64,000 nt of DNA from Natronoflexus pectinivorans (GTDB lineage: Bacteria > Bacteroidota > Bacteroidia > Bacteroidales > Marinilabiliaceae): NCBI RefSeq assembly GCF_004345615.1, contig NZ_SLWK01000001.1, positions 372,001 through 436,000 on the forward strand. The letters run 5' to 3'. The notes below the pieces were generated by a model. It did not search any database, was not told the DNA's origin, and saw only the letters and a program-made list of their open reading frames with translations. The position numbers and the translations under genes are program-made. Positions 3,248 through 59,059 of the stretch are shown piece by piece (the stretch's first letter is position 1; each line of letters opens with the position of its first letter).

Positions 3248-3350
3248 ATGATGAAACGAGACCTTAGGCTTCGAGACCTGTTCTCCCAAAGCATCGGGCT
3301 CTATTGAAAAACAAATTATATAGAGATAAAATCCTCATAGAATAAAAAGC

Positions 3351-5675: not shown

Positions 5676-8273
5676 TTATTGATAAATCACTTTTTTCCCG
5701 TTCTTGATATAAATCACACCCTTCTGTGGATATCTTACAGGACGTCCCAATAAGTCATAATACACATTGTCGCCATCATTTTCATTCTGGAATTCAGGAA
5801 TAGCATTAATGTTTGAGACGTCATCCAGTATAAGAGGCAGATTAACAGCAGTAACAGATCCATCAAAATCAAAATAGGCACTGAACGGCATTATGTAAGT
5901 TTGTTCTCCACTCTCCACCCGATGAAAGGAGTAAATACCGCCAACGTTTTTGAGCACATAGCTGTTTTTCGGAGCCTTATGAGAAACATAAACGTTTGTC
6001 ATATCATCAACTAAGCTCTCCTGTTGCGTTGACACCAAGCCATTTCCATTGAATGTAAAAGTTCCGTTGCCAACTATCAGGACGGGTGTGTTCGCATAGA
6101 TTCCTCCATTTTCAATACGATATCCATAAATATGTCCAGATTCATATTCCAGAGAATATACCCCTATATCTTCAGGAATGCTGGCATCAAAAGGTAAAGT
6201 CATAACTCTATACCCATTAAGCTGTAAGGTATAAGATGCAGAACCTGCAGTAATATCTTCTTGAATATAAAAGCTTCCACCAACATCTGACAAGATTAAT
6301 TCCTCACAAATGTTATCAGAAATAAGATTTGCACCAATTACAGCTTGTTCCTCTTCAATATAATACACTGCATTTTTATTTACTGACATGGAATGCCAAT
6401 CTGTACCAGAAGGTATTCCCGTGACTTCTGAAAAGTCAATTGAAGTTGTTGAAATATCTTCAAGACAATCCAACAGGAACCCATCACCCGAACTATATGG
6501 CCCGGAGAACTTATACATCTTCTCATCTCCAATCATAAAGTATACATCTCCAAACGTGATGGAGAGAACTGAAGTCCAGTTTCCATTACGAAGCCCAATA
6601 ATGCCGGTAATTCCATCGGTTAAAACATCGGTAGAAATATCAAGCACCCAATTGTAATTTCCTTGCTGATTAAAACTTATGGTTCCGTAATTATGAGATT
6701 GTACTTGCCCGTTTCCATTAATGTAATACAAAGTAGTATTAGCAGAAGTATAGGTAGCAGGGGAAGATATCTCTTTGATATGAAACACAAGTTTGTTATA
6801 CCTGTCATCCAATTGCAGATAACCATTAGAGCTGTTGGTATTTGGGCTAATGAGATGATTCCCATTATCAAAAATAAAAGATTGTCCACTCATTTGGTAA
6901 TTGGTTCCAAATGAAGGATTGGTTACAAACTGGTTTTCGATTGCATTCGGGAATATCTGTGCGCCTTCCATCTCTGACTCAGGTCTATCATCACCAATAC
7001 TGAAAATAAGCGTGGTGAAGCTTGAAGCAGCAATATCTATTCTTGGTCTAAAAGTCTCCTCCGGAATATCGATGGTTGATTCTACCATATTGGCATTGAT
7101 GGTGGTAGTTATACTTGTAGCCGAATTGGTGAAAAATGGTAAGTCAATGGTTAAAGTATAAGGGTTATCAGAAGGGTTTATAACTTTTACAATTACCTCA
7201 TCACCGGAAGCAGATAAATAGGCCGACCCATCAAGAACATCAGATCCACCTCGCCATGAACTTTCAACGCGTGTGGTTCCTGTAGTATATTGGGCATAAT
7301 GGCTCAGAATATAACCGCGTTTTGTAATCACTCCATAAGGTGTTCCGTTTGTTCCATCACCCATCATGCCATAATACCGTTTTGATGCATAATGAACCCA
7401 TGCATTAATATCGCTTAGAAGTGCAGTATTAACAGCTTTTGCAAAATCAAAAGCATCAATTGACCAAGTAAAATTACGGTCCGATGGTAAGTCGGCATTC
7501 CAGTTTATCAAAAACTCAGATTGCCATACTTCCATTCCTCTTTCCTGAAGTTTTTTATGTGCAGTTTGGATAGGCCCATACTGGTGACCTGCAAAGATGC
7601 CCAGATTTTCGAATACCTCATCAGGCAACATGGCATTTGCATAATCATCAGTAATCCCAATTCCCTCTGCTGCCATGATAGGAGCGGTAATGATATGACC
7701 GTAATCCCTGATGAAATTTGCCATTTGCTCTGGGGTAAAACGGCATCCATGATAACCCGGCAAATAATCTGGTTCGTTTTGAATGGATATGGCGGTTAAC
7801 TCCACCCCATTCTCTCTCATCAATTCAACGAAATTATTTAAGTAGTTTGCATAATCTTCGTAGTGTTCTTCTTTAAGTTCCCCGATAATTCCATTATGCA
7901 CTGCATTGATGTGGTTATTGGTTTTCCATTCTGGGGGCATTGTCCATGGACTGGCAAAGAGCTTAATACCTAAGGATTGTGCTAGTTGGGCAGTGGGAAC
8001 AGCTTGATGAAAATTACTTTCTCCCACTGGGATGTAAATCCGCATGATATTATACCCCATTTGGCTATTTTCGCCCCATAATTGTTGAATCTGTGCTGTG
8101 GTCATGTGGTTGAACTGAAATTGTGGTCCATTTACAAACCCTCCAAAGCCTGTAATTTTTTGATGCTGGACACTATTATCAATCACCATTGTAGCCGTTT
8201 GTGCAGATATTCCGCCAGCCTTCAAAAACATAATGAAAACAGGCATTAAAATGAAAGTATATATCTTTTTCAT
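5676..8273 (-). CDS. GH30 endo-xylanase-type glycoside hydrolase with large C-terminal extension and sorting-like tail
   Basis: I choose the start at 8273, giving 865 residues, because MKKIYTFILM opens a clean signal peptide; the longer frame to 8336 only reads the leader repeat. The GH30 barrel (about 30-340) begins QKITGFGGF. The acid/base is Glu167 (SIQNEPDY) and the nucleophile Glu253 (VWQSEFLI). The segment YASKRYYGMM lies where the glucuronic-acid-binding Arg of subfamily 8 glucuronoxylanases sits, so Arg299 may serve that role (inference). A beta-sandwich typical of GH30 follows to about 425. The remaining 440 residues contain unrecognised beta-rich modules and a C-terminal tail (YYDLLGRPV, then KGVIYIKNGKKV) like the sorting or anchoring tails of Prevotella/Bacteroides surface proteins. 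Its leader carries palindromic repeats (8300-8510). Confidence 0.88.
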   Translation of the reverse strand: MKKIYTFILMPVFIMFLKAGGISAQTATMVIDNSVQHQKITGFGGFVNGPQFQFNHMTTAQIQQLWGENSQMGYNIMRIYIPVGESNFHQAVPTAQLAQSLGIKLFASPWTMPPEWKTNNHINAVHNGIIGELKEEHYEDYANYLNNFVELMRENGVELTAISIQNEPDYLPGYHGCRFTPEQMANFIRDYGHIITAPIMAAEGIGITDDYANAMLPDEVFENLGIFAGHQYGPIQTAHKKLQERGMEVWQSEFLINWNADLPSDRNFTWSIDAFDFAKAVNTALLSDINAWVHYASKRYYGMMGDGTNGTPYGVITKRGYILSHYAQYTTGTTRVESSWRGGSDVLDGSAYLSASGDEVIVKVINPSDNPYTLTIDLPFFTNSATSITTTINANMVESTIDIPEETFRPRIDIAASSFTTLIFSIGDDRPESEMEGAQIFPNAIENQFVTNPSFGTNYQMSGQSFIFDNGNHLISPNTNSSNGYLQLDDRYNKLVFHIKEISSPATYTSANTTLYYINGNGQVQSHNYGTISFNQQGNYNWVLDISTDVLTDGITGIIGLRNGNWTSVLSITFGDVYFMIGDEKMYKFSGPYSSGDGFLLDCLEDISTTSIDFSEVTGIPSGTDWHSMSVNKNAVYYIEEEQAVIGANLISDNICEELILSDVGGSFYIQEDITAGSASYTLQLNGYRVMTLPFDASIPEDIGVYSLEYESGHIYGYRIENGGIYANTPVLIVGNGTFTFNGNGLVSTQQESLVDDMTNVYVSHKAPKNSYVLKNVGGIYSFHRVESGEQTYIMPFSAYFDFDGSVTAVNLPLILDDVSNINAIPEFQNENDGDNVYYDLLGRPVRYPQKGVIYIKNGKKVIYQ

Positions 8274-8299
8274 ATACTCTAATAAATTACAAATTTTTA

Positions 8300-8510
8300 A
8301 GCCCGAGTACTCGGGAGAACTCGCCAATCCAGTCATTCTTACTTCGACTGGGCTCAGTACTTCGCCTGTGTGAGAAAATCTTTGACTTCGTCGATCTGAC
8401 GATTCTCATGGCTCGTTTCATCTGTCTAAAATTTGTTTTTCAGTTGCTCCCGAGTACTCGGGAGAACTCGTCCCGAAGCCTCGGGACGAGTTTGGTGTGG
8501 TTAAAATTTG
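8300..8510 (-). repeat. palindromic leader repeat upstream of GH30
   Basis: This holds copies of the leader repeat family. There are palindromes CCCGAGTACTCGGG at 8302-8315 and again at 8447-8464, and a 12-bp-stem hairpin at 8465-8492 (loop 8477-8480). A unit at 8311-8436 shares GAACTCGCCAATCCAGTCAT, a TGTGAGAA...TTCTCA hairpin and ATGGCTCGTTTCAT with the leaders of GH127, GH10 and GH43. Read as mRNA, the unit contains an AAATTTTAGACAGATGAAA box like that found directly at start codons of the family. Confidence 0.8.
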
Positions 8511-16830: not shown

Positions 16831-19230
16831 TCATTTAACCATCACACACTGTTGCTTTACCAATCGGATAAAATAAACAGCCCCAGCTGTATTTCCTTGT
16901 ATTGATTGAAATTTTACCCTAATGCTTTCTTTTCCCTCAACCATTGAGTCAGGTATGGCATACTCCACATCGTGAAAAACAGATTGATTCCACCTCCCTG
17001 TATTGTCTTCACTTATTAGCTTCTCATCATCAATATAAATCTCAAATTTTCGTCCTCCCCATTCGGCACCCCAATACCTGACAATAAGACTTAAATTTGT
17101 CTCAAAATTGGTTTTCATTTGATAGCTGAAGAAGCCATTGCCTCGTGCATCTCGATAAAACTCATCAAAATGGTTCCCTGTACTTGAATTCTCAGATTTA
17201 AGAAGGTGGTCTGTTTCGGGCTGTTGCTCACCCGTCGCCACAAAATCAATTGTTCGACTTTCTAGGGCAATCCTCGCATTTTCCAAATTTGTTAATGAAT
17301 CCATGTATGCCTGATAGCCGTCACTTGTCAGGGCCAGCCAATACATCATATATCTTGCATCATGAATTTGGAAAAAAGGTTTCAACTGAATATCTATTGG
17401 ATTTATCATCTCCAAATTGAGCATAAAATTTAGGGGTTCTTCTTCAACAGGGCTCAATTTATCGACGATATTCTCAATATCGTCTTCAATCAGGATGGGT
17501 GCTTTGTTTATGGGCAATAATCTCCCTCCTGGATACTGGCTCCAACGACCATCGTCTGCTATAAGCCCCCTCAAGTCATCTGTGCCCGTTTCAGCGCCTA
17601 ACAACACAGGGCCGTGCATAAAAGCAATATAATCCGGCACATTAGGTAAATGCTCAATGGTGCTGTGCATTGGCAATCTGACCTCCACCACATCTCCCTT
17701 TTCCCATTTTCTCTCTATGCTTATATAAGATGAAGGGTGCTCAGAATACTTAACCTCATTCCCATTTACAGTAACAGTTAATTCTCCTTCTTTCACCCAT
17801 CCGGGGTAACGTACCATTAAATTAAATCTAGAGGAACCATTAGTTACAGTAAATTTTGTCCTTTCTTCAAAAGGAAATTTTGTTTCCTGCTTAATTATGA
17901 TATTCCGGTCTTTCCAATTGAGTTCTGAGGCAATAAAAAGATTTAGGAACAAAGAGTCTCCTGAATGCGTGTATATAAATTGATTATACTTTGCATGATT
18001 TTCCATCCCAGTGCCAACGCAACACCACATGGCCTCATTTGGTGCTGAATAAACTCTGTAATGACGGGGTCGCGCTGTTGTGAAATAGACATAGCCTCCG
18101 TGCTCCGGATGCTGGGTAGAAAGAATATGGTTGAAGAGAGTTCTTTCATAGTAATCGGCATAATGAGCAGAAGGTTGCTGTCTGAATAAAACTTCAGTCA
18201 ATCGTAACATATTGTATGAGTTGCACGATTCAGGGCCATCAACATCTCTGATGAAATCACTGCAAGCATTTACACTGGGAAAATGTTCTCTGCGACTATT
18301 ACCTCCAAACGCAAGCGACCGATTTTCTGTAATGGTTTCCCATGAGAATCTCCCAGCTCTATTGTATTGATCATCGCCACCTAATTCGGCAATGCGTGAA
18401 AATCCAATGAACTTAGGAATCTGGGTGTTGGCATGTTTGTTATCTAAATTATCAATTCCCTGGGATAATGGTTCCAAAAACATCCTATGCGAATATCGTT
18501 TTGCAGCATCGAGGTATTTCTTATCGCCGGAGATTTGATACGCATCTGCAAAGATTTCATTCATTCCGCCATGCTCTTCATCAAGTACATGTTGCATTTG
18601 TTGGTCATCCAGTCCTGAAGCAATTTCTATCCCCCAATTGCAAAACTCCAAAAACATTGATTTCGCCTCCTCGTAACCACAATACAACCAGGCATCTCTA
18701 AGACCGGCATACATTTTATGCAGATTATAAAAAGGTGCCCATGAAGAGTTATAGACTCTGAAATCACCCTTTTTAAACCCTGACCATAATGCTTCGCTGT
18801 TTGGGAAACCGCCTAAGTAACCAACTCCCCAGTCAGGATTATTAATGGCATTGGCCTCCTGACATTTTCTAAGTTCAGATAGCATATATTCTATTCTTCT
18901 CTTAGATTCCGGGTGACCTGTTGCCGCGTAATTCAGAGCCATGGCTGTTAAGTAGTGACCTGCAACATGGCCATCAAGCCCATCCCAATTGGGATAACTT
19001 GGAGCTTTCTCAGGCAACCCGGCTTCCTTTCGGTAGGGAGCCAATAATCGATCAACATCATACTTAAGAAGAACTTCCATATTAAGATCTCGGGCATCTT
19101 TAAACTTCCCATCCAACAGTTTAACGTCAGACAAGGGAAATGTATTATGATACATTTTTTCTTGTGCCTGAACGGTATTAAAAAAGATCAATATGATGAT
19201 ATTAATCAGAAGAAGTTCTATTTTTTTCAT
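16831..19230 (-). CDS. GH127/GH146-family (DUF1680) beta-L-arabinofuranosidase-like enzyme
   Basis: I place the start at 19230, giving 799 residues and a signal peptide (MKKIELLLINIIILIF, cleavage near TVQAQ). An open frame continues 70 codons further up, but that part is the leader repeat. The (alpha/alpha)6-barrel has LDGHVAGHYLTAMA and PFYNLHKMYAGL. The zinc site of the family is complete: Glu334 and Cys336 (GPESCNSYN), and Cys403-Cys404 (EAMWCCVGTGMENH). One of the paired Cys is the catalytic nucleophile in characterised GH127 enzymes. A C-terminal region about 620-799 includes a beta-sandwich (IVRYWGAEWGGRKFEIYID). Known members remove beta-L-arabinofuranose, so the exact target in a xylan context is open. 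Confidence 0.88.
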   Translation of the reverse strand: MKKIELLLINIIILIFFNTVQAQEKMYHNTFPLSDVKLLDGKFKDARDLNMEVLLKYDVDRLLAPYRKEAGLPEKAPSYPNWDGLDGHVAGHYLTAMALNYAATGHPESKRRIEYMLSELRKCQEANAINNPDWGVGYLGGFPNSEALWSGFKKGDFRVYNSSWAPFYNLHKMYAGLRDAWLYCGYEEAKSMFLEFCNWGIEIASGLDDQQMQHVLDEEHGGMNEIFADAYQISGDKKYLDAAKRYSHRMFLEPLSQGIDNLDNKHANTQIPKFIGFSRIAELGGDDQYNRAGRFSWETITENRSLAFGGNSRREHFPSVNACSDFIRDVDGPESCNSYNMLRLTEVLFRQQPSAHYADYYERTLFNHILSTQHPEHGGYVYFTTARPRHYRVYSAPNEAMWCCVGTGMENHAKYNQFIYTHSGDSLFLNLFIASELNWKDRNIIIKQETKFPFEERTKFTVTNGSSRFNLMVRYPGWVKEGELTVTVNGNEVKYSEHPSSYISIERKWEKGDVVEVRLPMHSTIEHLPNVPDYIAFMHGPVLLGAETGTDDLRGLIADDGRWSQYPGGRLLPINKAPILIEDDIENIVDKLSPVEEEPLNFMLNLEMINPIDIQLKPFFQIHDARYMMYWLALTSDGYQAYMDSLTNLENARIALESRTIDFVATGEQQPETDHLLKSENSSTGNHFDEFYRDARGNGFFSYQMKTNFETNLSLIVRYWGAEWGGRKFEIYIDDEKLISEDNTGRWNQSVFHDVEYAIPDSMVEGKESIRVKFQSIQGNTAGAVYFIRLVKQQCVMVK

Positions 19231-19450
19231 CTGTTTATAATTTGTTTTTATAGGCCAGATGGAACTCGCCAATAATAATCCTCCTGTGTGAGAACTTTTT
19301 CTCATGGCTCGTTTCATGTGTCTAAAATTTGTTATTCCATCCCGAGTACTCGGGATGGAACTCGCCAATCCAGTCATACTTATTTCGACTGGGCTCAGTA
19401 CATGTCTATGTGAGAAGTACTTGCTCATGGCTCGTTTCATCTGTTAATAA
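19231..19450 (-). repeat. two tandem leader-repeat units upstream of GH127/146
   Basis: Two units run from 19258 to 19325 and 19354 to 19440. Each has GATGGAACTCGCCAAT, a GTGAGAA hairpin and CTCATGGCTCGTTTCAT. They are separated by a perfect 26-base palindrome at 19335-19360 with CCCGAGTACTCGGG as core. On the mRNA strand each unit opens with ATGAAACGAGCCATGAG and is preceded by an AAATTTTAGACA or AAATTATAAACAG box; the last box ends at the true start codon. The frame is open through both units. Confidence 0.85.
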
Positions 19451-19676: not shown

Positions 19677-21983
19677 TTACTTCAACAAGAACTTCTCAAC
19701 TCTTATTTGGTTATTTTGATCAGTTAACTGAATAACGTACATTCCTCTTGCAAAGCTACCTACATCTAAACTATATGACTCATTTGCAGAATTACCAGAA
19801 TAAACAAGTACGCCCATGCTATTAAAAATGCTGATTCTAAATGGAGACGACTCGTATGCTATGTTAAGATTGTTTGTTGCCGGATTGGGATAAATTCGAA
19901 CCCTACTTTGCTCGATGATGGTCGTTCCAACGGATGCATTATTAGCAATCTCCTCAGGCCCAAATGCATTGGCAACACTCCCATCCAAAGCCTTTAACGA
20001 ACCTGGGAAATAAGATACAGAGATATATTGCCCCGTAGGGACATTTGAACTTAAAGAGAGAATGACTGCATTCTCGTTATCAGGATCAACATTCGCCGCT
20101 TCAACACCAATGTTCCCTGGTGAGAAAAATCTGTAATTACTGCGTCGCAATGAATTACCATCAATAGGCTTATCGAATAAAAGCCTCACAGAATTTCTTC
20201 CAACAAGCTCTGTTTCCAAAATCTGCGGCCCCTTAACTACTGCGTCTTCCTCATTTAATACAAAAACCGCATCGGCATTTGCTTTCAGCAAAGGAACTTC
20301 AAAGACTTTAACTACTCCGTCAAATTCTGCTTCTACTGTATAATTACCATGGAATGCATTAAAAGTTAAAGGTTCATTGGCCGGCATTACTGCATCGAAA
20401 TTTGTTGCCCACTTGGTTTTTGTATAATAAAGTAAGGTATCAGCAGCTAGTTTAGGCCTTCCATCTTCATCAAAGAAACCAGACCTATCACGCCATGCCC
20501 ATCCATCTCTAAGCGACCAGTGATATAACCCTACAATAGATGGGTGTGAAAAAGCGATGGTAAGAACCATGATATAGTCAGCAGCTTGTTCAGCCTGTGT
20601 GAGATTTCCGCCGAAGTCATACTCAGTCAGTTTGATTGGCAAGCCGGGTTCAGCAACAATATTAATGTTACGTACCAGCTCATTAATCCCTGGCCTGCAA
20701 CAGTCCCAGAAATGAGCCTGCATCCCTACACCTGTTACAGGGGCACCCTCCTCCAGCATCTGAAATATTAAATCCCGGTATTCTTCAGCCTGACCCCAAT
20801 TATACTCCACATTATAATCATTTATATAAAGTTCGGCATCAGGATCTACTGAACGTGCCCATTTAAAACTGTCCCAGATAATTCGGTCACCCACTTCATT
20901 TCTTAACCAATCAGCATGACCGGTAAGCGGTTCATTTACCACATCATACTCTTTAATAATCCCTCTATATCGCTCAACATCCCGAAGAACTCTCTCTCTA
21001 CATGCTTCATATATATCTTCAGGAGTTGGCAGGCTTCTTACCCAATTTGGAGTTGAGTGATTATCATTACCGCCCCATATCAAAGCATGCCCTCTTAACT
21101 CCCAACCAACTTTTTGAGTCCATCTAACAGCATTCTCAAATACGGTATAATTGGGTGGACCGGGTTGTGACTGAACACCACTCCATTTAAAAGAGTTTTC
21201 GGTAACACCGGCGTTAAAATATTTATACATCGTGGCCTTTCTCCAATCATCGTTGGATGCAACTGTATTTGCATCAGGATCGAAGAATCCTGCCTCTACA
21301 ACATACTCATTGCCATCACCTGTTGTTAATGCAGATCCTCCGCAATTAATCCTTAAAGCAAAATCACCATCAACTTCTTCAATAACAATCCCTTTTATAG
21401 CTACATTATCCACTAAAGCTTCAAGTTCAATTAGAATTTGATTCCCGGAAGATGTAACCACCAGACTCCTATCTACAGCAATATCTCTTCCTCCGGCCAC
21501 TGCATGGGTATCAAAATTTTCCAAAAAGAGTTCCCCATCAATCCGTACATTAAAAATACGGGCATTGTTTCCTCCATGAAATATTTCAGCGAACTTAAGG
21601 GTGACTTCATAATCTTTTCCAGCTTCAACCGGGATGGCATAAGCTAAATAGCCACCCCATCGTTCAGTCCGGTAGATTTCGGCATCTTTTTCGGCCTGTA
21701 CAACATTGTTTGTGGAAAAAACATTTCCCATGCTTTGAGCTCCTTGGGAGAAATCAAAGGCAATGCCAAATGGAAATTCATGTTTCTGCATTCGAATAGC
21801 GACTTCGCCCGTGTAGGGCTCCCCGTTTTTATCGAATATTTGTATGCCATAGGAGTCCATGCGTAGCTCCTCTATACGCTCTTGGGCATTGTTATACCAA
21901 TTGGTATAGTTTTGAGCTTGTATGCTTATTGGAAAAATAAATATTCCAATAAGCATACATAGCAGTAAATTAATTGATTTCAT
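19677..21983 (-). CDS. GH10 endo-xylanase with nested malectin-like domain and type IX sorting domain
   Basis: 768 residues, signal peptide to about residue 24 (SIQAQ). The GH10 entry strand FPFGIAFDFS (71-80) is interrupted by about 165 residues and resumes at KYFNAGVTENSFKW (254-267). The acid/base is Glu351 (YDVVNEPL) and the nucleophile Glu454 (IKLTEYDFGG). The insert (about 85-243) is malectin-like: IYRTERWGGYLAYAIPV, VTLKFAEIF, IFNVRIDG, then AIKGIVIEEV and finally LRINCGGS. The last motif normally opens a malectin domain, so the order looks permuted. After the barrel come an Ig-like domain (about 585-690) and a type A Por/type IX sorting domain (695-768: RIYPNPATNNLNI, ending KFLLK). 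The protein is probably exported to the surface to cut xylan backbones. Confidence 0.92.
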   Translation of the reverse strand: MKSINLLLCMLIGIFIFPISIQAQNYTNWYNNAQERIEELRMDSYGIQIFDKNGEPYTGEVAIRMQKHEFPFGIAFDFSQGAQSMGNVFSTNNVVQAEKDAEIYRTERWGGYLAYAIPVEAGKDYEVTLKFAEIFHGGNNARIFNVRIDGELFLENFDTHAVAGGRDIAVDRSLVVTSSGNQILIELEALVDNVAIKGIVIEEVDGDFALRINCGGSALTTGDGNEYVVEAGFFDPDANTVASNDDWRKATMYKYFNAGVTENSFKWSGVQSQPGPPNYTVFENAVRWTQKVGWELRGHALIWGGNDNHSTPNWVRSLPTPEDIYEACRERVLRDVERYRGIIKEYDVVNEPLTGHADWLRNEVGDRIIWDSFKWARSVDPDAELYINDYNVEYNWGQAEEYRDLIFQMLEEGAPVTGVGMQAHFWDCCRPGINELVRNINIVAEPGLPIKLTEYDFGGNLTQAEQAADYIMVLTIAFSHPSIVGLYHWSLRDGWAWRDRSGFFDEDGRPKLAADTLLYYTKTKWATNFDAVMPANEPLTFNAFHGNYTVEAEFDGVVKVFEVPLLKANADAVFVLNEEDAVVKGPQILETELVGRNSVRLLFDKPIDGNSLRRSNYRFFSPGNIGVEAANVDPDNENAVILSLSSNVPTGQYISVSYFPGSLKALDGSVANAFGPEEIANNASVGTTIIEQSRVRIYPNPATNNLNIAYESSPFRISIFNSMGVLVYSGNSANESYSLDVGSFARGMYVIQLTDQNNQIRVEKFLLK

Positions 21984-22120
21984 GTGTCTATAATTTGTAT
22001 TTTAAGGTCACATGGAACTCGCCAATCCAGTCATTAGCTGCGCTGATCTTCGATTCCCCTGTGTGAGAATATCTTTGACTTCGTCGATTTTACGATTCTC
22101 ATGGCTCATATCATAGAATT
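21984..22120 (-). repeat. leader repeat upstream of GH10
   Basis: One leader-repeat unit. The box next to the start codon reads, on the mRNA strand, ACAAATTATAGACACATGAAA. Further up lie CACATGGAACTCGCC, the CCAGTCAT segment, a GTGTGAGAA...TTCTCA hairpin and ATGGCTCATATCAT. Unlike the GH127 copy, the frame upstream of the start codon contains a stop. Confidence 0.8.
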
Positions 22121-35959: not shown

Positions 35960-37816
35960 TTAAAAACTTCTGATAGTCGCATACACGCCATAAACTTCAT
36001 CCTCAATCTCAAATAATGGTTTTAAGGTGTAAGTTGACCCATTGTTATTAAGATAAAACATGTCATTTTCAGAAACCAGATTAGCCAGAATTGACTCATG
36101 ATCTCCTTTCAAGATCAATTCATTACCACTTTTAAATGCCAATAAGATAGGGCCATAAAACAAGGCGATCACACTCTCATCGTCGGGCATGGTTTTAATA
36201 TGAAAGTCATAATCAAAGGATAAACTGACTTTGTCTCCATCGTTCCATTCTCGATTAAAACTGAGGAATGATTCCGGCTTAATTTCAATATTCTGAATTT
36301 CATCATTAATAGAGACGGTAAGATTGTTTGCCCAGGAGGGAATAAAAAAACGGAGGTCTAACTCTCTCTCTTCAGGTGTTGAAACACTAAACTCCACCGA
36401 TGGGCTTAGAGGGAAATCTCCTGTTTGTTCAATTTCTACCCCCATTTCAGTCCAATTCAATTTCGAAGGGATATACATATTTATCCATAATGTTGAGTTG
36501 TGGTGAAAATATATCCCTGAATTAAGCTGGGCAAAAGCCTCAATTGACGAACCATTACAACAATGAAAGTCATTTTCTGCTAAGAACTTCTTTTGCCTGG
36601 GCGAGCCCAATGGCAAATGGTAAACACATTTGCCTGTGCGGGCACTTTGTAATGCCATCACTGAATTGTAAAAAGTATTCATAAAGGCATCTGCATATTT
36701 TGGCTCAGCTGTCCAGGAGAACAATGATTTTGAGATCTTCTGGGTATTATGCGAAACGCAAGTTTCAGCAATTTCCTTTGTCATAGTATTGCTCAACACC
36801 CCCGGCACACCCCAGTGTTCAGCACTCAATGAAGTAGGGGTTATAACGTTTGGTCGGGGACCACTGCTCGAACCGTTAGCATATACATGATAATTGATTA
36901 ACATATCCCAAAAATTTATCACGGCGTTGCGATACTTCGCATTCTTGTTTATAGGATATGCCTCTGCAAAACCATTAACCAACACAATATGTGTATTGGA
37001 ATGAAGACCCGACAGAATGTTTTCATTATTTGCCATTGGTTTAAGGAACCAATCACGGTCGAAGAGTTGAGCCAATTCCAAGTGAACAGAATCGTTTGTC
37101 ACTGCATACAATTTGTACAGCACTTCATTCATTGCCCCCGCTTCATTCATTGGATTAGCTCCAACACTGTAGAGAACTTTTTCAATGGTCTCCTCATCAA
37201 GTTTCGACATGCGCATTTTTACATATGCAGCCATTTGTTTCACCATATCCAGAGCTCTTTGGTTGCCTGCAAAAATGTATGCATCCAGCAAACCCTGCAT
37301 GATTTTGTTATAAGTATAATAAGGAGCCCAAACCCCACCAAACTGAGATTCTAACACATCGAAATCTCTTTCAGGAAATGCACTCAGATAGCCATTCCCA
37401 AATACCATCTGACATTTATAAAGCTCATCCACCATGTAATTTATTCTTTCCAAAAAATCGGAATCCCCATACCTTGCGACTAAAAAAGAAGCAGCAGAGA
37501 GGTAATGCCCGGTAAAGTGACCCTTAAGGCCAACCCACGGAGCTTCCCACCCATCAAGGGGTTTCGCATTGGTTGGCAACCCTGCATTTTCTCTGAAGTT
37601 ATGCAGCAGCCTGTCGCTGTCAAGAGATCTCAAATATTCAGTATTTAGCTCTTCACGCTCTTTTACCCAGGAATCATTTAACGTTACCAAATGCCCGGGA
37701 AAAGGCAAAGCTACGTCTATAGAAAAGTCAGAAATTGATTTATCCTGAACCTTTGAAGAGCTGCATGAGTAAATCAAAACAGACAACAATACCGTTAGTA
37801 CTTTAAAATTTTTCAT
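35960..37816 (-). CDS. GH127/GH146-like (DUF1680) lipoprotein
   Basis: I place the start at 37816 (618 residues), which gives a lipoprotein signal MKNFKVLTVLLSVLIYSC (Cys18). The frame is open 27 codons further through the leader hairpins, but that part is repeat. The barrel shows VGLKGHFTGHYLSAASF and APYYTYNKIMQGL. The family zinc ligands are conserved: Glu351-x-Cys353 (IAETCVSHN) and Cys419-Cys420 (FHCCNGSSIEAF). The gene is shorter than the paralogue at 16831-19230 and lacks its C-terminal sandwich. The two differ clearly in sequence, so they likely act on different linkages. Substrate unknown; known GH127/GH146 activity is beta-L-arabinofuranosidase. Its start lies 77 bases past the GH2 stop. 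Confidence 0.85.
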   Translation of the reverse strand: MKNFKVLTVLLSVLIYSCSSSKVQDKSISDFSIDVALPFPGHLVTLNDSWVKEREELNTEYLRSLDSDRLLHNFRENAGLPTNAKPLDGWEAPWVGLKGHFTGHYLSAASFLVARYGDSDFLERINYMVDELYKCQMVFGNGYLSAFPERDFDVLESQFGGVWAPYYTYNKIMQGLLDAYIFAGNQRALDMVKQMAAYVKMRMSKLDEETIEKVLYSVGANPMNEAGAMNEVLYKLYAVTNDSVHLELAQLFDRDWFLKPMANNENILSGLHSNTHIVLVNGFAEAYPINKNAKYRNAVINFWDMLINYHVYANGSSSGPRPNVITPTSLSAEHWGVPGVLSNTMTKEIAETCVSHNTQKISKSLFSWTAEPKYADAFMNTFYNSVMALQSARTGKCVYHLPLGSPRQKKFLAENDFHCCNGSSIEAFAQLNSGIYFHHNSTLWINMYIPSKLNWTEMGVEIEQTGDFPLSPSVEFSVSTPEERELDLRFFIPSWANNLTVSINDEIQNIEIKPESFLSFNREWNDGDKVSLSFDYDFHIKTMPDDESVIALFYGPILLAFKSGNELILKGDHESILANLVSENDMFYLNNNGSTYTLKPLFEIEDEVYGVYATIRSF

Positions 37817-37886
37817 GCGTCTATAATTTGTTATTTCATCCCGAGTACTCGGGATGGAACGCGTCCCGAAGCCTCGGGACGCGTTT
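37817..37886 (-). repeat. leader repeat with two tandem hairpins upstream of GH127/146
   Basis: The start-codon box (mRNA strand AACAAATTATAGACGCATGAAA) is followed upstream by a perfect 20-base palindrome at 37837-37856 (core CCCGAGTACTCGGG). Directly next to it is a 12-bp-stem hairpin at 37858-37885 (loop 37870-37873). The two hairpins occupy nearly the whole gap to the GH2 stop codon and may also act on GH2 transcript termination. Confidence 0.8.
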
Positions 37887-37893
37887 AATAAAA

Positions 37894-41082
<3,189 letters not shown>

Positions 41083-41128
41083 TTATTTAAAATTCTTTAT
41101 TCTGGTGCAACTCACCCATCCCCAAAGG

Positions 41129-41157
41129 TTTGAAACATGCTGTGGGCATGTTTCAAA
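41129..41157 (-). terminator. hairpin between the second esterase and GH2
   Basis: A perfect 12-bp stem (41129-41140 with 41146-41157) and a 5-base loop, past the esterase stop codon (41189) and ahead of the GH2 start (41076). No clear U-tract on the minus strand. Confidence 0.5.
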
Positions 41158-42299: not shown

Positions 42300-43649
42300 G
42301 AACTTCCACCAGTCAAAATCGAACAGGTCTTTTTCTCCTCTGAAAACAAAATAGAGATCCCGAACACCTTTTGCATTTTCGTTTACGGGTGCTGAAAAAG
42401 TTCTCCAAATACCACCTTCCCGGGAAGTGTTTACATCAACTGTGGCTATAATGGGGCCATCGAGTCTATCGACTCTTATTTCAATTTTTCCTCCATAAAG
42501 CGACGCAACACTTACATCAACCGACTTTGCACCAGTTGAAAAATCAGCCCCTTTTACCATGATGTAATCACCATGATTTATAGAGGTAACGAATTTACGA
42601 TCGGCAATTCTCTCTCCTCTTGCCCAATCAAAATCGCCTTCCCATTCCGTTTCAGATCTGGTTTTAACGCCTTCGCTCCAAGCCATCGTTTCTGCTTCTA
42701 CTCTTTCAAAAGGATTCAGAGTTCCCACTTGTTGCGGACCTTCTACCGTCCAGTAAGGACGGTTTTGTATGGTTCCGTCAGAGTTATAGACCATCTCATC
42801 GAGCATCACTGAGCGGCGCTCGTAAAATTTCGTGGTTGTTAGTTTAAGCAGATCATAACTGTGGCCAAAGCAGTACCACTTCCCTTTAAATTCAATAATT
42901 CCGGGATGGTTTCCCCTGCTTAGTTCTGTTGCATCCATAATCATACCCTTATACTCCCATGGACCCGTAGGTGAGCTGCTCATGGCATAACCAATCCCTT
43001 CGGGACAACAAGTAGATGCATAAGCCATATAATAATGCTCATTGCGTTTCCAAACCCAAGGACCCTCCTGATAATTTGCAGGTGTTGTTTCCTCCACCAT
43101 AATCTCTCCGGAATATGAAATCATATCCTCATTAAGCTTCACATAGTAAACTTTAGGATTTCCCCAATACAAATATGCCTGCCCGTCATCGTCAATAAAA
43201 ACAGCCGGGTCAATATCATGATGACTGTTCTGAATCAATGGTTTTCCAAGCGGATCCTCAAAAGGGCCATAGGGACTATCGGCCACCAAAACACCTATCC
43301 CAATTCCATTTGGAATGGGGCAATAGAAATAAAACTTCCCATTGCGTTCGATACAATGTGGAGCCCATGCTCCATTGTCGTATGGGACCCAATCAAAATT
43401 ATCTAACGATGCAACCACACCATGATCTGTCCAGTTCACCATATCGGTTGAAGTATATAACAACCAATTAAACATTTTAAAGCCCATGGCATCATCGGCA
43501 TCATGCCCCGTGTACAAAAACACTGTATCATTATAAACCATGGGCGCCGGATCGGCGGTGTATTTGGTTTGGATGATGGCTCTTTGAGCAAGGACTGTTT
43601 GACTCATCAAAAAAGAGATTATCAAAAATAGTGAGAATCGACTTTTCAT
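42291..43649 (-). CDS. GH43 (subfamily 29-like) with C-terminal CBM6, second copy
   Basis: 452 residues with a signal peptide (about 1-22, MSQTVLAQ). Same layout as the protein at 13116-14492: base Asp33 (YTADPAPMVYND), Asp147 (HHDIDPAVFIDDDGQAYLYWG) and acid Glu195 (NYQEGPWVWKR). A C-terminal CBM6 (about 325-452) contains RVEAETMAWSEG and the DLFDFDWWKF ending. The active-site region NGAWAPHCIERNGKFYFYCPI is close to its paralogue. Probably an alpha-L-arabinofuranosidase acting on arabinoxylan; two copies may prefer different positions of arabinose. Its start codon is preceded by a leader repeat (43650-43750), which separates it from the sugar-metabolism genes. Confidence 0.9.
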   Translation of the reverse strand: MKSRFSLFLIISFLMSQTVLAQRAIIQTKYTADPAPMVYNDTVFLYTGHDADDAMGFKMFNWLLYTSTDMVNWTDHGVVASLDNFDWVPYDNGAWAPHCIERNGKFYFYCPIPNGIGIGVLVADSPYGPFEDPLGKPLIQNSHHDIDPAVFIDDDGQAYLYWGNPKVYYVKLNEDMISYSGEIMVEETTPANYQEGPWVWKRNEHYYMAYASTCCPEGIGYAMSSSPTGPWEYKGMIMDATELSRGNHPGIIEFKGKWYCFGHSYDLLKLTTTKFYERRSVMLDEMVYNSDGTIQNRPYWTVEGPQQVGTLNPFERVEAETMAWSEGVKTRSETEWEGDFDWARGERIADRKFVTSINHGDYIMVKGADFSTGAKSVDVSVASLYGGKIEIRVDRLDGPIIATVDVNTSREGGIWRTFSAPVNENAKGVRDLYFVFRGEKDLFDFDWWKFNQ

Positions 43650-43750
43650 GTGTCTATAGTTTAATTTTCAGTTACCACATGGAACTCGCCAATCCAGTCA
43701 TTTCCCTGTGTGAGAAAAGCTTTCTCATGGCTCGTTTCATAGTTTCATAT
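43650..43750 (-). repeat. leader repeat upstream of the second GH43-CBM6 gene
   Basis: A short leader-repeat unit. The start-codon box on the mRNA strand is AAACTATAGACACATGAAA. It is followed upstream by CACATGGAACTCGCCAATC, CCAGTCAT, a compact GTGAGAAAAGCTTTCTCA hairpin and ATGGCTCGTTTCAT. Confidence 0.8.
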
Positions 43751-51960: not shown

Positions 51961-53259
51961 ATGAAAAAAATTTACCATTTAATTGTAGCACTATTCGTGT
52001 GCTCTGTTTTAGTGAGCGCAGAAGAACCTGCCTACACCAACATCCTTCCTAATGGAAATTTTGAAGGAATCACAGAATTATCCGAACCAGGAGAAGCATT
52101 AAGATGGCATGTATGGAATGCCGCATCGTTTGAATTGGTAGCAAGCAATAATGACCTTGATACCGAAAGCACTCAGGCTTTAAAAGTCGTTGTGAAAGAT
52201 GAGGTAGAGAATGTTTGGGACACACAAGTTGTATCACCCACGGTGGATGTTGTGGCTGGAGAAGAGTACACCCTGAAGTTCCAATTCCGTACTGACGTCC
52301 CATCTGAGTTCAGAATATCAACTGCAGAAACATCAGCTCAATATTCTGGAAGTTTTGTAACATCAGAAAATTGGACAGAGGGATCTTTTGTATTTAATGC
52401 AACCGGAGACGACATAAGCATACGTTTTGATATTGCACATGCTGCTGATGTTGAATTCTATTTTGATAATATAAGATTATACACCGCTGCTAGTGGTGAT
52501 GACAATGGTGACGACAACGGGAATGACAATGGAGACGACAATGGAGATGACAATGGAGATGACAATGGAGATGACAATGATGTAAACATCCTCTCTTCAG
52601 GAGATTTTGAAGGTATCACAGAATTATCTCAAGCAGAATGGCAAGTATGGAATGCCGCGTCATTTGAATTGGTAGCAAGCAATAATGACCTTGATATCGA
52701 AAGCACTCAGGCTTTAAAAGTCGTTGTGAAAGATGAGGTAGAGAATGTTTGGGACACACAAGTTGTATCACCCACGGTGGATGTTGTGGCTGGAGAAGAG
52801 TACACCCTGAAGTTCCAATTCCGTACTGACGTCCCATCTGAGTTCAGAATATCAACTGCAGAAACATCAGCTCAATATTCTGGAAGTTTTGTAACATCAG
52901 AAAATTGGACAGAGGGATCTTTTGTATTTAATGCAACTGGAGACGACATAAGCATACGTTTTGATATTGCACATGCTGCTGATGTTGAATTCTATTTTGA
53001 TAACGTAAGACTTTTGGGAGCGGTTGCAACCACTTCAATTGCATCTCCGACATTCGAAAAAGAAGACAATCTTGTTTACACTTCGAATGGCAATGTTATC
53101 ATTGATGACGCATTTGGAAAGAACATTGAAATATATGCTATTACAGGAGTTCGGGTATTTGGTGTTTCTGCTACCGCAGACAGTGTAACAGTACCTCTTT
53201 CAAATGGTATCTATATTGTAGTAGTAAACAATGTAGCAACTAAAGTTCTGGTTAAATAG
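51961..53259 (+). CDS. secreted two-module carbohydrate-binding-like protein with acidic linker and sorting tail
   Basis: 432 residues, signal peptide about 1-20 (VLVSAEE). No catalytic domain seen. Two nearly identical beta-sandwich modules (about 30-175 and 218-352) carry NGNFEGITEL or SGDFEGITEL, WNAASFELVASNNDLD, YTLKFQFRTD, FVFNATGDDISIRFDI and VEFYFDNIRL/VRL, the pattern of CBM4/9-like or related carbohydrate-binding folds. They are joined by a linker of repeated Gly-Asp-Asp-Asn units (about 178-208). Residues about 365-432 look like a type A Por/type IX sorting domain (IEIYAITGVRVFGV, then SNGIYIVVVNN, ending KVLVK). It is the only binding-only protein here and reads away from lacI. 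A role in holding substrate at the surface is inference. Confidence 0.8.
   Translation: MKKIYHLIVALFVCSVLVSAEEPAYTNILPNGNFEGITELSEPGEALRWHVWNAASFELVASNNDLDTESTQALKVVVKDEVENVWDTQVVSPTVDVVAGEEYTLKFQFRTDVPSEFRISTAETSAQYSGSFVTSENWTEGSFVFNATGDDISIRFDIAHAADVEFYFDNIRLYTAASGDDNGDDNGNDNGDDNGDDNGDDNGDDNDVNILSSGDFEGITELSQAEWQVWNAASFELVASNNDLDIESTQALKVVVKDEVENVWDTQVVSPTVDVVAGEEYTLKFQFRTDVPSEFRISTAETSAQYSGSFVTSENWTEGSFVFNATGDDISIRFDIAHAADVEFYFDNVRLLGAVATTSIASPTFEKEDNLVYTSNGNVIIDDAFGKNIEIYAITGVRVFGVSATADSVTVPLSNGIYIVVVNNVATKVLVK
52111..52478 (+). repeat. direct repeat copy 1 (binding module)
   Basis: Matches 52645-53012 without gaps at a fixed offset of 534 bases. I count about 6 differences in about 365 bases, several of them silent. 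The coding duplication is therefore recent or kept uniform by gene conversion. Confidence 0.9.
52497..52582 (+). repeat. 12-base tandem repeat encoding the acidic linker
   Basis: Repeats of GATGACAATGGA and variants encode Asp-Asp-Asn-Gly units. The last four are nearly identical, typical of slippage-prone repeats whose number may vary between strains. Confidence 0.85.
52645..53012 (+). repeat. direct repeat copy 2 (binding module)
   Basis: Second copy of 52111-52478; see that entry for the comparison. Confidence 0.9.
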
Positions 53260-53343: not shown

Positions 53344-54231
53344 AACTCTCTCTTCAGAGGTACAATTAACACTTAGCACCTTCCTAAAGAACATTCATTC
53401 TGACTATATTATATTTCAAAAGCTTAAATACCTAAACCTCGTGGTATAATCTTTATTGAATACCTCAGAATCTATAAACATATTAGCCTTAGGAAGATAA
53501 ATATCAACTGAATTATTCTAAATAGTAAAGTGACATCATTCAGGGGTAAACAGATAAAACTCTAAACTGGTTAACTCTCAACACTTCGTATCGCAACGCC
53601 CTTACATTTTGTATATAGGAAATAAATATCCAAAATTAAAACCCATATGTCTATAACCAAAATTGACTTAGCTTAAAAATTTAATATTTTTATACATTTC
53701 AAAGTGTTTAATAATCTACACTCAAAGCCAGCTTTAAAAGTAATGCATAATCTTAGAGACTGATTGAATTTATATCGAATAGATTAAAGAGATTTTTAGA
53801 TTTTAGACCGATAGACAAAACAAAATAGAAAACCAGTTGTGTTAATCATCTTTCTGAACTATTCTATCTGTCTAATCCCGAATGTCTCGGGATAAAGATC
53901 TATCATCTACTTTTTTAAAGAATTAAAATTTAACAGATACATAAAATTCTTTAGGGAGTGATCTGGCATAGTAGATCTGTTATTAACCAACACAAGCACC
54001 GCCTTACACCTAATCTTTTCAATTAATTATTTGAATGCAGTCTTGATTTTTGTGATAGAATTAATGCATTCGACTGAAGATTTTACTATATAGCTAAATT
54101 GTCATTTTTTTGAGATTAATTGCTTTCAAAGAATCAACATGCAATAGTTATATGAAACGTGTCCCGAAGCTTCGGAAACCATAGAAAAAAAATTTTAGAC
54201 AGATGAACATTAACTAAATAAACTTACTACC
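53344..54231. other. gene-free intergenic stretch with repeat relics
   Basis: Nearly 900 A/T-rich bases with no convincing gene on either strand. It contains a CCCGA/TCGGG hairpin at 53876-53892, the leader repeat at 54150-54205 and presumably the promoter of the GH43 gene at 54232, which I cannot place. Confidence 0.5.
54150..54205 (+). repeat. leader repeat, plus-strand copy, upstream of GH43
   Basis: This copy faces the opposite way to the others and again points at the gene it precedes. It reads ATGAAACGTGTCCCGAAGC, a CCGAAGCTTCGG palindrome (54164-54175) and AAAATTTTAGACAGATGAAC. The ATG in the box is not the gene start; the GH43 start follows about 28 bases later. Confidence 0.65.
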
Positions 54232-55923
54232 ATGAGAAAAAAATTCATTTTACCTTTTTTTGTGCTGGCATTTGCTGTATTATATTCCTGCACTGAAAGA
54301 AGCAATGACATTGCTGTTTTTGAACACTTTCGGTACAAAGGAAATGATGCCCTGTTCGACAGAGAGTTTGACCCACAGAATCAGTATCTCAATCCCGTGT
54401 TGGCTGGTTTCTATCCCGACCCATCCATATGCAAAAAAGGAGATACTTACTATGTTGTACACTCCTCGTTCAGTCTTTATCCTGGTGTGCCAATTTTCAA
54501 AAGCAACGACCTTGTTAATTGGGAACAAATAGGACATGTTTTGGATCGTCCATCACAATTGGAACTAGAGGGTCTGCAAATTTCCAATGGAATTTTTGCT
54601 CCTGCTATTGAATACAATCCATACAATGAAACATTTTACATGATAACAACCAGTACCTGGGGTATTGGAAACTTTTATGTAAAAACCAAAGATCCGGAAC
54701 AAGGATGGAGCGATCCGATTGTATTTCCACAAGTTAGAGGCATAGACCCATCGGTATTTTTTGATGATGATGGTAAAGGATATATTCTGGAATGTGCTGA
54801 ACCAATGGGTGGAGCCGATTATGGCGGTCAGAGGGCAATTCACATGCATCTGTTGGATGTAGAAAATGATGTTATAATAGGAGAACCTAAGGAGATAGTA
54901 AGAGGAGGAGCCAGACCTGAAGACAGACCCATATGGATTGAAGCACCTCATATCATTAAGAAATTTGGATACTATTATCTGATTTGTGCCGAAGGAGGAA
55001 CCGGATTAAATCATTCACAAGTTGTGTTTAGGAGTAAGGATGTTTGGGGACCATACATTCCTTATGAGAACAACCCGATTTTAACTCAACGTGACTTGCC
55101 AGAAGAAAGAGATGATAAGATTACCACAGCTGGGCATGCTGATTTTGTTCAAGACGAGAACGGTAAGTGGTGGGCAGTATTTTTAGGTGTTCGTCCTTAC
55201 GATTTTGACATGACCAATGTTGGAAGAGACACCTATTTATTGCCGGTTGAATGGCCAGAAGGGGGTTGGCCTACAATATTACCGCAAGGGGAACAAATTC
55301 CTATTGTAAATGACAAGCCTGGTTTAAATCCAGACCCCAACATTCCGCCTACTACCGGAAATTTTGAATTCGTGGACAATTTTGACTCAGAAGATCTTGG
55401 CTTTACCTGGATGCACATACGTACACCTCGTGAGAAATATTATACTGTAGGAAGTGGCAAGTTGGAATTACGCCCGCGTGATGTGACCACCGAAGAGATT
55501 GGCAATCCATCAGCTATTTTGCGGAGACAACAACATACCACTTTTGAGGCTGAGACCAAACTTGAATTTTATCCCGAAACCGAAGCTGATTTTGCAGGCT
55601 TCACTCTTTTCCAGAATGAAGAATATCAATTCTTATTTGGAAAAACCATGGTTGATGGAAAAACTTCATTAGTTGTAAACAGACTTGAGAAGGATAAGGA
55701 GACATTGGCCACTGTTGAATTAACAGGAAGAGATAGAAACCGTCCGGTTTATCTTAAAGTTACCGGAGATGCAGCCGACTATAGCTTCTTGTACAGTTTC
55801 GACGGAAATAATTGGGAAACTTTGGTTGAAAATGCAGATGGCAGAAACCTGAGTTCAAGAGTTGCCGGAGGTTTTATTGGTGCACTTATAGGGCTTTACA
55901 CCACCAACAACTTCGAACTATAA
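54232..55923 (+). CDS. GH43 beta-xylosidase/arabinofuranosidase lipoprotein with concanavalin-like C-terminal domain
   Basis: 563 residues with a lipoprotein signal (LAFAVLYSC, Cys20). Propeller motifs: base Asp63 (NPVLAGFYPDPSICKKGDTYY), SLYPGVPIFKSNDLVNWEQIGHVL, Asp172 (RGIDPSVFFDDDGKGY) and acid Glu237 (PIWIEAPHIIKK). Residues about 380-563 form the concanavalin-like domain that usually completes the active site of these beta-xylosidases (DNFDSEDLGFTWMHIR, ending GGFIGALIGLYTTNN). It differs from the four minus-strand GH43 proteins. Probably releases xylose or arabinose from arabinoxylo-oligosaccharides at the periplasmic side. Single-gene transcript: leader repeat before, terminator after. 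Confidence 0.92.
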   Translation: MRKKFILPFFVLAFAVLYSCTERSNDIAVFEHFRYKGNDALFDREFDPQNQYLNPVLAGFYPDPSICKKGDTYYVVHSSFSLYPGVPIFKSNDLVNWEQIGHVLDRPSQLELEGLQISNGIFAPAIEYNPYNETFYMITTSTWGIGNFYVKTKDPEQGWSDPIVFPQVRGIDPSVFFDDDGKGYILECAEPMGGADYGGQRAIHMHLLDVENDVIIGEPKEIVRGGARPEDRPIWIEAPHIIKKFGYYYLICAEGGTGLNHSQVVFRSKDVWGPYIPYENNPILTQRDLPEERDDKITTAGHADFVQDENGKWWAVFLGVRPYDFDMTNVGRDTYLLPVEWPEGGWPTILPQGEQIPIVNDKPGLNPDPNIPPTTGNFEFVDNFDSEDLGFTWMHIRTPREKYYTVGSGKLELRPRDVTTEEIGNPSAILRRQQHTTFEAETKLEFYPETEADFAGFTLFQNEEYQFLFGKTMVDGKTSLVVNRLEKDKETLATVELTGRDRNRPVYLKVTGDAADYSFLYSFDGNNWETLVENADGRNLSSRVAGGFIGALIGLYTTNNFEL

Positions 55924-57139: not shown

Positions 57140-58300
57140 TTATTGAACTGGTACAAACCTCCAATGCGAATTATTATGATTGGTATTTGCCCATTGTCCT
57201 ACATTAGATCCGTCAGAAGTTCTTCCCATACCATCAAGGTATAATCCGGTTCCTCTGTTTCTTAAACGGTAATAACCATTGCCGGCAGACTCCAGGCTCC
57301 ATTGAGCATTGTTGTGATTTGTGTTTGCCCATTGCCCAACATTCGCACCATTTTCAGTTCTTCCCATTCCATCAATATATAAACCTGTACCTCTGTTTCT
57401 AAATCTCTCAAAACCTCCGGAAGCTTCTCTTGTCCATTGTGCGTTTTGGTGATTGGTGTTGGCATATTGTCCAAGATCAGATCCATCAGAAGTTCTACCC
57501 ATTCCATCTAAAAACAACCCGGTTGCCCGGTTTTGTATCCTGTAATAAGTAGCTCCACCGCCGTCGGTGTTGCCGCCATCGCCACTTCCTTCACCAGCGC
57601 TCCATACTGTTGCATTCACCGAGCCCTGGCTATTACCGCCATATGCTTCTGTAAGTAGAATCGCATATGGAGACATATCATTTAAATGATATCCTAGATT
57701 CGCCCATGCATTCACATGATTTGCGAAAGTAATTGTACGATTTTGACCAACAGGCACCTTAGATCTTCTTGTACTGTAAATTTGAGTAAAAGTCTGGGTT
57801 CCTTCAATAGATGGTGCATTTACCCTAATATCCTCATAGATATCATATGTTGAACCATCGCTGTTAACCGTTCCAAGGAATCTGCCATAAGTAGGCCTTT
57901 GAGTACCCCAGCTTTCATTTACATAGTACTCTATCATTGGACTTCTGGACCAACCATAATACCCAAAAACTCCACCACCACTATGGTTATGTACCCCTAT
58001 ATTATACCCAATAATTCTTGTTTTCGAACCGGAACTCCATCCTTTTCCACATGTAAAATTACCATTGTAATCCCACGAAACACTGTAATTTCCTCCTGGT
58101 CCGTTTTGGTAATCTATCCAGCCACTGTGGTCATCAGTCCAAAGTTGCCAAAAATAACCATCATGTGTACCCGAATCGTATGACTTAAGGGTGGCGTCAG
58201 ACATTACATCATCAATCATTAAATCATCGTCAATGATATCTTCTGAGCACCCAGCAAACATAAAAACTAATGCAGTTGCAATAAAAAAAACTTTTTTCAT
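57140..58300 (-). CDS. GH11 endo-beta-1,4-xylanase surface lipoprotein with ricin-type trefoil
   Basis: 386 residues from the start at 58300, which gives a lipoprotein signal (LVFMFAGC, Cys18). Asp/Glu-rich residues follow the Cys (SEDIIDDD), the pattern of the Bacteroidetes surface lipoprotein export signal. GH11 jelly roll (about 45-232): GYFWQLWTDD, nucleophile Glu124 (SRSPMIEYYVNE) and acid/base Glu218 (AILLTEAYGGNSQG). After a short Gly/Asp linker comes a ricin-type beta-trefoil (252-386) of three nearly equal repeats, each with TGL(F/Y)(L/I)DGMGRT and Gln-(Tyr/Trp)-ANTNH; such modules (CBM13-like) often bind xylan. GH11 enzymes cut unsubstituted xylan backbone. It is divergent from susC, so both may share regulation. 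Confidence 0.93.
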   Translation of the reverse strand: MKKVFFIATALVFMFAGCSEDIIDDDLMIDDVMSDATLKSYDSGTHDGYFWQLWTDDHSGWIDYQNGPGGNYSVSWDYNGNFTCGKGWSSGSKTRIIGYNIGVHNHSGGGVFGYYGWSRSPMIEYYVNESWGTQRPTYGRFLGTVNSDGSTYDIYEDIRVNAPSIEGTQTFTQIYSTRRSKVPVGQNRTITFANHVNAWANLGYHLNDMSPYAILLTEAYGGNSQGSVNATVWSAGEGSGDGGNTDGGGATYYRIQNRATGLFLDGMGRTSDGSDLGQYANTNHQNAQWTREASGGFERFRNRGTGLYIDGMGRTENGANVGQWANTNHNNAQWSLESAGNGYYRLRNRGTGLYLDGMGRTSDGSNVGQWANTNHNNSHWRFVPVQ

Positions 58301-59059
58301 AATTTTTGTTGGATTTTTAATAGTGTAAGGCATAAAAACATTCAAGTTGAATTGTAAAAAAAGTAAAGGGACCAACTGTGGTCACCCTTTGGTTTCATTA
58401 AAGAAATAAAATTCACTTTTTTTAGCGTTTAAATATACATTTTTTTATTTAACTTATGATTTTATTTTGATTCTTTTGTTTATAATTATCTACACTTACA
58501 TCCCTTAATCAATAAATCGATCTTTCTTTAAGTTTCATTACTTGCTATTTTTATGATCGTTACACACATTATCAATTACTATAAAACAAAAGGAAAATAG
58601 CTTTTATTTATCTTAATATTTTTTCTGCCAGTGACGTTGATTTTTCTATCATTACATAGAATTATAAGTTATTCTGCTGCATTTACGTTATTTATATTCT
58701 TCTTTTCCTGAAATATTTTGAGATAAATTAAAATGCATACGAAATTATTACATGTTTTTGTTTATTTGAGAGGCATTTACAAACTTTAGTGGCGATAATT
58801 CATTGCAAATATTAAATAAGACGAACGATTATTTGGTCATTTTTGTTTATTTTTTATAATTTTATCAATCCAAATTGCACATTGCACATTTATTATCTAT
58901 TCAAAATTTTAGATAATATCTCTGGCATAATATCGAAACTCTCTTATCGCAATCGCGACTTTTTCACTACAAGAATCAGCACTATCATTTGGTACATGGT
59001 ACCATATGCCAACATGTATTCTATATAATCACTAATTGTTTCATTCAAAAAAAAGAATT
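58301..59059. other. divergent control region between GH11 and susC
   Basis: About 760 very A/T-rich bases that must hold both promoters. TATAATTTTA at about 58855 is a weak -7-like candidate for susC. An imperfect palindrome around 58375-58391 (AAAGGGACCA / TGGTCACCCTTT) lies upstream of GH11. Neither is convincing, and no gene was found. Confidence 0.4.

Follow-up and report, generated by a model that had tools for sequence, protein, structure and literature searches.

The repeated leaders in the 64-kb window (the whole stretch of DNA that we analyzed, C1:372001-436000 of the N. pectinivorans assembly) are probably copies of a tiny mobile DNA element that folds into hairpins, is common across Bacteroidia, and has ATGAAA as its target. 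A covariance model trained on 35 diverse units detected at least 72 copies in the 4.47-Mb N. pectinivorans genome (E <= 0.01; best E 1.1e-16). The same genome yielded 107 matches to a tail pattern, AACAAATTWTAGACRSATGAA, at up to 3 mismatches, versus 2 for a reversed-pattern control, and 69 matches to a head pattern, ATGAAACGAGCCATGAGNA, at up to 2 mismatches, versus 0 for the control. The original prediction of a repeat family was right in that the family is real and not a product of chance, but the parts that it listed are not common to every copy.

The element is widely but patchily distributed. The tail pattern was present in 52 of 71 genomes of the family, representing 18 of 21 genera, while in one genus it was found in none of 15 genomes. 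Among 119 genomes sampled class-wide, 29 had matches to model R1 (N. pectinivorans itself and 28 other Bacteroidia), and two other families gave at least 34 and at least 35 model R1 matches. Carriers were found in Labilibacter, Carboxylicivirga, Saccharicrinis, Marinifilum, Labilibaculum, Geofilum, Prolixibacteraceae, and Paludibacter, with some of the records being metagenome bins, and copy number is very uneven from genome to genome. No Rfam family reached its gathering score in the window. The unit family was undescribed in the literature that we searched, where coverage of subscription papers was incomplete, so an earlier description is possible. One unit (185-227) was also seen at the extreme edge of a viral contig, IMGVR_UViG_3300033562_001108, where it possibly lies in the host flank of a provirus.

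Units are about 55-160 nt long, typically 90-97 nt, with the consensus ATGAA[AC-GA-GCC...GGC-GA-GTT-C-CATNNG...AACAAATTATAGA-CNN]ATGAA. Read in the direction of the gene, the parts are ATGAA, AC-GA-GCC, ATGAGAA with a loop and TTCTCA, CACAGG..ATGACT.., GGC-GA-GTT, C, CATNNG, an A/T-rich loop that includes AACAAATTATAGA, CNN, and the final ATGAA. This corrects the order first proposed: ATGAAACGAGCCATGAG forms the 5' end, whereas the AAATTNTAGAC box forms the 3' end and lies immediately ahead of the ATG of the gene. Long forms have additional hairpins, and short forms consist of a single hairpin plus the tail. The right-hand ATGAA is present in 79 of 81 units and the left-hand ATGAA in 63 of 70, the latter figure varying with the head patterns used. 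The two ends of the unit, ATGAAACGAG and CACATGAA, do not form terminal inverted repeats, and no parent insertion sequence was found. The palindrome CCCGAGTACTCGGG, originally thought to be a shared part, is an optional insert and does not define the unit. It occurs inside many units where hairpin 2 begins (e.g., window positions 8302-8315, 19341-19354, and 37840-37853), reads CCCGAT..ATCGGG in other genera, and may be a separate tiny insert.

A two-hairpin structure is supported because both hairpins covary. In hairpin 1, positions 6 and 8 are Watson-Crick paired in 68 and 71 of 85 units (40.5 and 38.5 when shuffled), and its base changes from AAC/GTT to AAT/ATT in distant Bacteroidia. This hairpin also includes a conserved tandem G.A step, which is GA/GA in 73 of the 85 units and AT/AT in 4; by general nucleic-acid chemistry, such a step is stable only when the sense strand folds. 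In hairpin 2, CATNNG pairs with CNNATG, which places the new start codon within the 3' arm, and the predicted fold agrees. The NNN/N'N'N' triplets of hairpin 2, which include GTG/CAC, CTG/CAG, ATG/CAT, and CCG/CGG, show perfect complementarity in 183 of 208 copies, compared with 75 on average, and 95 at most, after shuffling. Over alignment A1, 12 pairs are 97.3% paired, with covariation of 0.196 versus 0.048 for shuffled and 0.004-0.027 for slid alignments. Several longer types have a 5' arm that, by eye, is apparently complementary to both a near and a far segment. Fold energies differ little between the strands, and wobble asymmetry and mismatch counts favor neither strand as the folded one. 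A pairing between GTTCCAT and the left ATGAAAC was set aside as main evidence, as an invariant C stands where a perfect match needs T.

Within the window, covariance model matches with E < 1e-8 were obtained at 19226-19317, 43645-43740, and 21979-22114, and the other leaders are weak (E 0.03 to 1.2). The region 19231-19450 consists of two head-to-tail minus-strand units with a common ATGAA at 19317-19313. The first is a full unit (19226..19317; E 1.2e-17 plus sequence) that adjoins a GH127 gene, and its right ATGAA (19230-19226) is likely the GH127 start codon (MKKIELLLINI). The second, upstream in tandem, carries a palindrome insert (19313..19440) and was identified by its sequence and by the genome model match C1:391313-391440. 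Two more minus-strand units, found by the covariance model beside genes assigned with Pfam, lie on the start codons of GH10 (21979..22114, ATG 21983, E 4.2e-9, left end decayed to ATGATATG) and GH43-CBM6 (43645..43740, ATG 43649, E 4.3e-16). On the same strand, a unit with loop and palindrome inserts and the variant tail GAGTATATGAA (8269..8421; identified by sequence, with a weak model match at 8296-8421, E 0.55) is followed upstream, in tandem, by an older short hairpin-type unit with a decayed left end (8417..8495; sequence). The called ORF starts at 8336 and 19440 both fall within units, and the true starts of the GH30-like and GH127 genes are more likely 8273 and 19230.

Most of the remaining window copies depart from the uniform, gene-directed leaders that were originally described. 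Two short hairpin-type units identified by sequence have neither the GGAACTCGCCAATCC segment, the TGAGAA hairpin, nor ATGAAACGAGCCATGAG: one with a palindrome on the minus strand, at the start codon of a second GH127 gene (37812..37889, ATG 37816; weak model match, E 0.08), and one on the plus strand (54152..54207; weak model match, E 1.2). The plus-strand leader does not end at the start codon of its gene, since the ATG at 54203 opens only a 4-codon ORF, and the GH43 start at 54232 is 29 nt downstream. Nor does every copy point to its gene; a decayed plus-strand unit (3251..3330; weak model match, E 0.03, and the ORF list) sits between two minus-strand genes, off any gene start. A possible decayed minus-strand unit on a GH2 start codon (41072..41156, ATG 41076; weak model match, E 0.085, and sequence) is uncertain. 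By Pfam, the window genes with units are GH30-like, GH127, GH10, GH127, GH43, GH43, and possibly GH2.

Clean empty sites in a second species of the genus (genome G041) are the reason we interpret the units as having inserted precisely at ATGAA(A) without disturbing the reading frame. Of 18 unit-started N. pectinivorans genes sought in G041, 17 were found, at 80-98% identity. Five are clear empty/filled sites (C7:107391, C11:51562, C6:78967, C1:464222, and C17:42317), and C2:189822 is a sixth with a diverged flank. At C7:107391, for example, the upstream sequence is common to both species up to GGATTT; G041 then reads ATGAAAAGGAC, and N. pectinivorans has ATGAA and the rest of the unit, followed by ATGAAAAGGAC. 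At the empty sites in G041, an ATGAAA gene start comes directly after the same upstream flank without a unit, and ATGAA is thus present once at the empty site and at both unit ends at the filled site. C1:464222 has two tandem units in N. pectinivorans and zero in G041. Other genes (miaA, fhs) have units in both species, sometimes of different types, and for this reason the same start codons appear to be targeted repeatedly. Mobility is read here from comparison, and if the sister species had lost a unit precisely, the outcome would be indistinguishable from insertion.

Copies within the N. pectinivorans genome add to this picture. Units that differ by one base precede unrelated genes (C1:153933 and C1:363654), which points to recent copying, and tandem units overlap by exactly ATGAA in five pairs, with no opposite-strand neighbors. 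Altogether, the sister-species empty sites, the near-identical units before unrelated genes, the tandem self-insertion, and the enrichment at starts described below support the earlier suggestion of a mobile element that targets translation starts. Further support comes from a second repeat family of ~170 bp, with ~50 BLAST matches in the genome, in which four copies hold a unit at the same fixed position and many others are empty. The letters at that insertion point, however, count against the explanation: all of the empty copies read ATGATT, ATAATT, or similar, and all four filled copies read ATGAAT, a pattern that fits strict targeting only if the filled copies mutated first.

Placement was assessed for 112 loci with 114 units from named genomes, which were picked by internal sequence and an ATGAA end and not by gene position. 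Classes were assigned with a simple ORF-based gene model, and the remaining ATGAA sites of that DNA served as background. The units fall on a start codon in 76 cases, in intergenic DNA in 35, and in genic DNA in 3, compared with 258 start, 671 intergenic, and 2775 genic background sites. Units are enriched at starts relative to intergenic sites (odds ratio 5.6, p = 1e-16). Placement is thus strongly nonrandom, and the random genome-wide scatter that would have made this an ordinary REP-like repeat was not seen. The sixth base is A in 33 of the 35 intergenic copies (94%) versus 313 of the 671 background sites (47%). Because intergenic copies, which are free of coding constraint, so strongly prefer A at this base, the target recognized is ATGAAA and not the start codon as such. 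Selection would account for the small number of genic copies. The surplus at start codons over intergenic sites requires either a preference for such targets or better survival of the copies there, the two being inseparable here; it probably arises from the abundance of ATGAAA at gene starts, the loss of genic copies, and tolerance of, or benefit from, the new leader.

With many short copies, no gene of its own, precise empty sites, and a target repeated at both ends, the family is probably a nonautonomous (MITE-like) mobile element, defined by its conserved two-hairpin fold. Insertion at an initiation region displaces the old ATGAA upstream and replaces it with the 3' ATGAA of the unit, so that the gene keeps its frame and gains a structured leader. 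Since each insertion re-creates the ATGAA target, units stack head to tail. The resulting mRNA would have a folded leader with the start codon held in the last hairpin and an A/T-rich segment just upstream. Since the 3' arm of hairpin 2 contains the start codon, translation may plausibly be affected. A further ATG (MKRAM...), sometimes in frame, is left upstream after insertion. If this is right, gene leaders in much of Bacteroidia are rebuilt time and again by a very short mobile unit, without gene breakage because the unit restores the start codon on which it lands. Such a unit could readily generate expression differences among close strains, it would account for misassigned start codons and false N-terminal extensions, and it raises the question of which enzyme mobilizes a geneless 90-nt unit.

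Mobilization would occur in trans, by an enzyme that recognizes the folded strand. The mover could be a Y1 (HUH) tyrosine transposase from the IS200/IS605-RAYT superfamily, though we put this forward tentatively and as a first candidate only. A single 151-aa Y1 transposase with motifs DHIH, WQ, and YINNQKEHH is encoded in the N. pectinivorans genome (C1:12562-12906), and its resemblance to TnpA subclass 1.2 makes it an appealing candidate. Subclass 1.2 is a Bacteroidetes/Cyanobacteria group with low copy number, generally without typical IS200 terminal structures (PMC6006769). Y1 transposases were found in 10 of 12 carriers searched, in addition to N. pectinivorans, and were absent from two, G034 and G005; of these, G034 is a 98%-complete genome with 31 tail matches. 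These absences count against any Y1 enzyme as the sole mover. No unit was found at Y1/RAYT gene ends in 33 loci (one unit lies >1 kb away), and the N. pectinivorans Y1/RAYT proteins had no tblastn match in 832 kb around 112 copies. Head-to-tail distances in all of the DNA examined, measured with patterns that miss some variants, gave no convincing autonomous or enzyme-carrying version above about 220 nt. A group II intron or other retroelement/reverse transcriptase was rejected as the mover, as RVT_1 is absent from both N. pectinivorans and G041. A few hundred bases downstream of the 151-aa Y1 gene is an ORF that, by eye, resembles Cas9.

The units share several features with IS200/IS605 ends and their nonautonomous derivatives, which are moved by Y1 TnpA: short hairpins, a short fixed target beside one end, the lack of terminal inverted repeats, a hairpin-foot segment able to pair with the ends, and possible movement in trans (PMC6006769). 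They differ in that no transposase-bearing copy of the family was found, ATGAA is at both unit ends, and the carrier G034 is without Y1. When set against the guide arrangement of IS200/IS605 and REP (PMC6006769), the hairpin foot, pairing segment, and end motif of the unit fit the antisense strand only, whereas its conserved G.A step fits the sense strand instead.

An RNA-based alternative, close to the control element across an enzyme regulon raised in the original prediction, is a cis-acting regulatory RNA with an sRNA, protein, or ligand site under selection at start codons. Consistent with this, units are in sense orientation in leaders, 68% of them at gene starts, the covarying, RNA-like fold includes the start codon, and the longer types look, by eye, able to form two alternative pairings. 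However, the downstream genes share no function. The CAZyme association in the window arises because the window is a plant-polysaccharide locus; outside it, units precede miaA, aroQ, formate-tetrahydrofolate ligase (fhs), lolA, and pspC as well as genes for a pyridine nucleotide-disulphide oxidoreductase, an FMN reductase, and a radical SAM protein, and no common function was found among these eight unrelated genes. In addition, orthologous genes in the sister species often have no unit, about one-third of the copies are off genes, copies occur in tandem, and copy number varies greatly among genomes. A regulon-wide control element is thus quite unlikely, and a local effect of the unit on the translation of each gene is possible. 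We also regard as unlikely a mobile unit that acts at the RNA level, in which the leader RNA folds, recognizes ATGAAA, and returns to DNA by copying or splicing. Such a unit would suit the conserved tandem G.A step and the sense orientation of copies in leaders, but neither N. pectinivorans nor G041 has an RVT_1 reverse transcriptase, the fold energies of the two strands are nearly alike, there is no match to ribozyme or intron families, and intergenic copies exist. The chances are slim for a class-wide RNA-based unit in which the sense RNA moves and hairpin 2 gates the start codon that it installs, making mobility and translational control one device.

A DNA-based alternative to an ATGAAA-targeting element is that the units are ordinary REP sequences of the RAYT transposases of the genome. 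REP/RAYT repeats, including the GTAG and CGTC repeats, are likewise small, folded, many-copy sequences, mostly outside genes and with species-specific variants (PMC3733652, PMC6006769), and the units are short palindromic repeats in a genome with two RAYT-like genes. We nevertheless consider this reading very unlikely. Other palindromes (GGCACGAGTT..AACTCGCGCC) flank these RAYT genes, no unit was found beside a RAYT gene, and the target and the landing on start codons are foreign to REPs. Units also differ from REPs in their length of 55-160 nt, two different hairpins, insertion at ATGAAA, and preference for start codons, and there is no GTAG or CGTC tag in the aligned units. HEARO (RF02033) reportedly integrates at ATGAA or GTGAA; it is longer than the units and is tied to an HNH nuclease gene. 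RF02033 had no match in 13 carrier genomes, in a search without a positive control (no control genome matched). The TAACTGA direct repeats of Beggiatoaceae and some Bacteroidetes (PMC4679880) are likewise located beside start codons, patchy across taxa, and without a common gene function, but those are tandem heptamers a few bases upstream, while the unit is folded, covarying, and inserted precisely at the ATG.

The RAYT-like Y1 genes are adjacent to each other (C4:110329-111326), have their own palindromes, and encode the motif YIHNNP, as in subclass 2.6 (PMC6006769). The window also has repeats of other kinds. A 300-nt stretch is duplicated with 99% identity at 52039-52937, within ORF 51961-53259, and between the two copies are 12-nt repeats encoding an acidic run (52482-52589). 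At 57159-57550, within ORF 57140-58375, a 119-nt repeat occurs three times in tandem, the copies being 71-76% alike.
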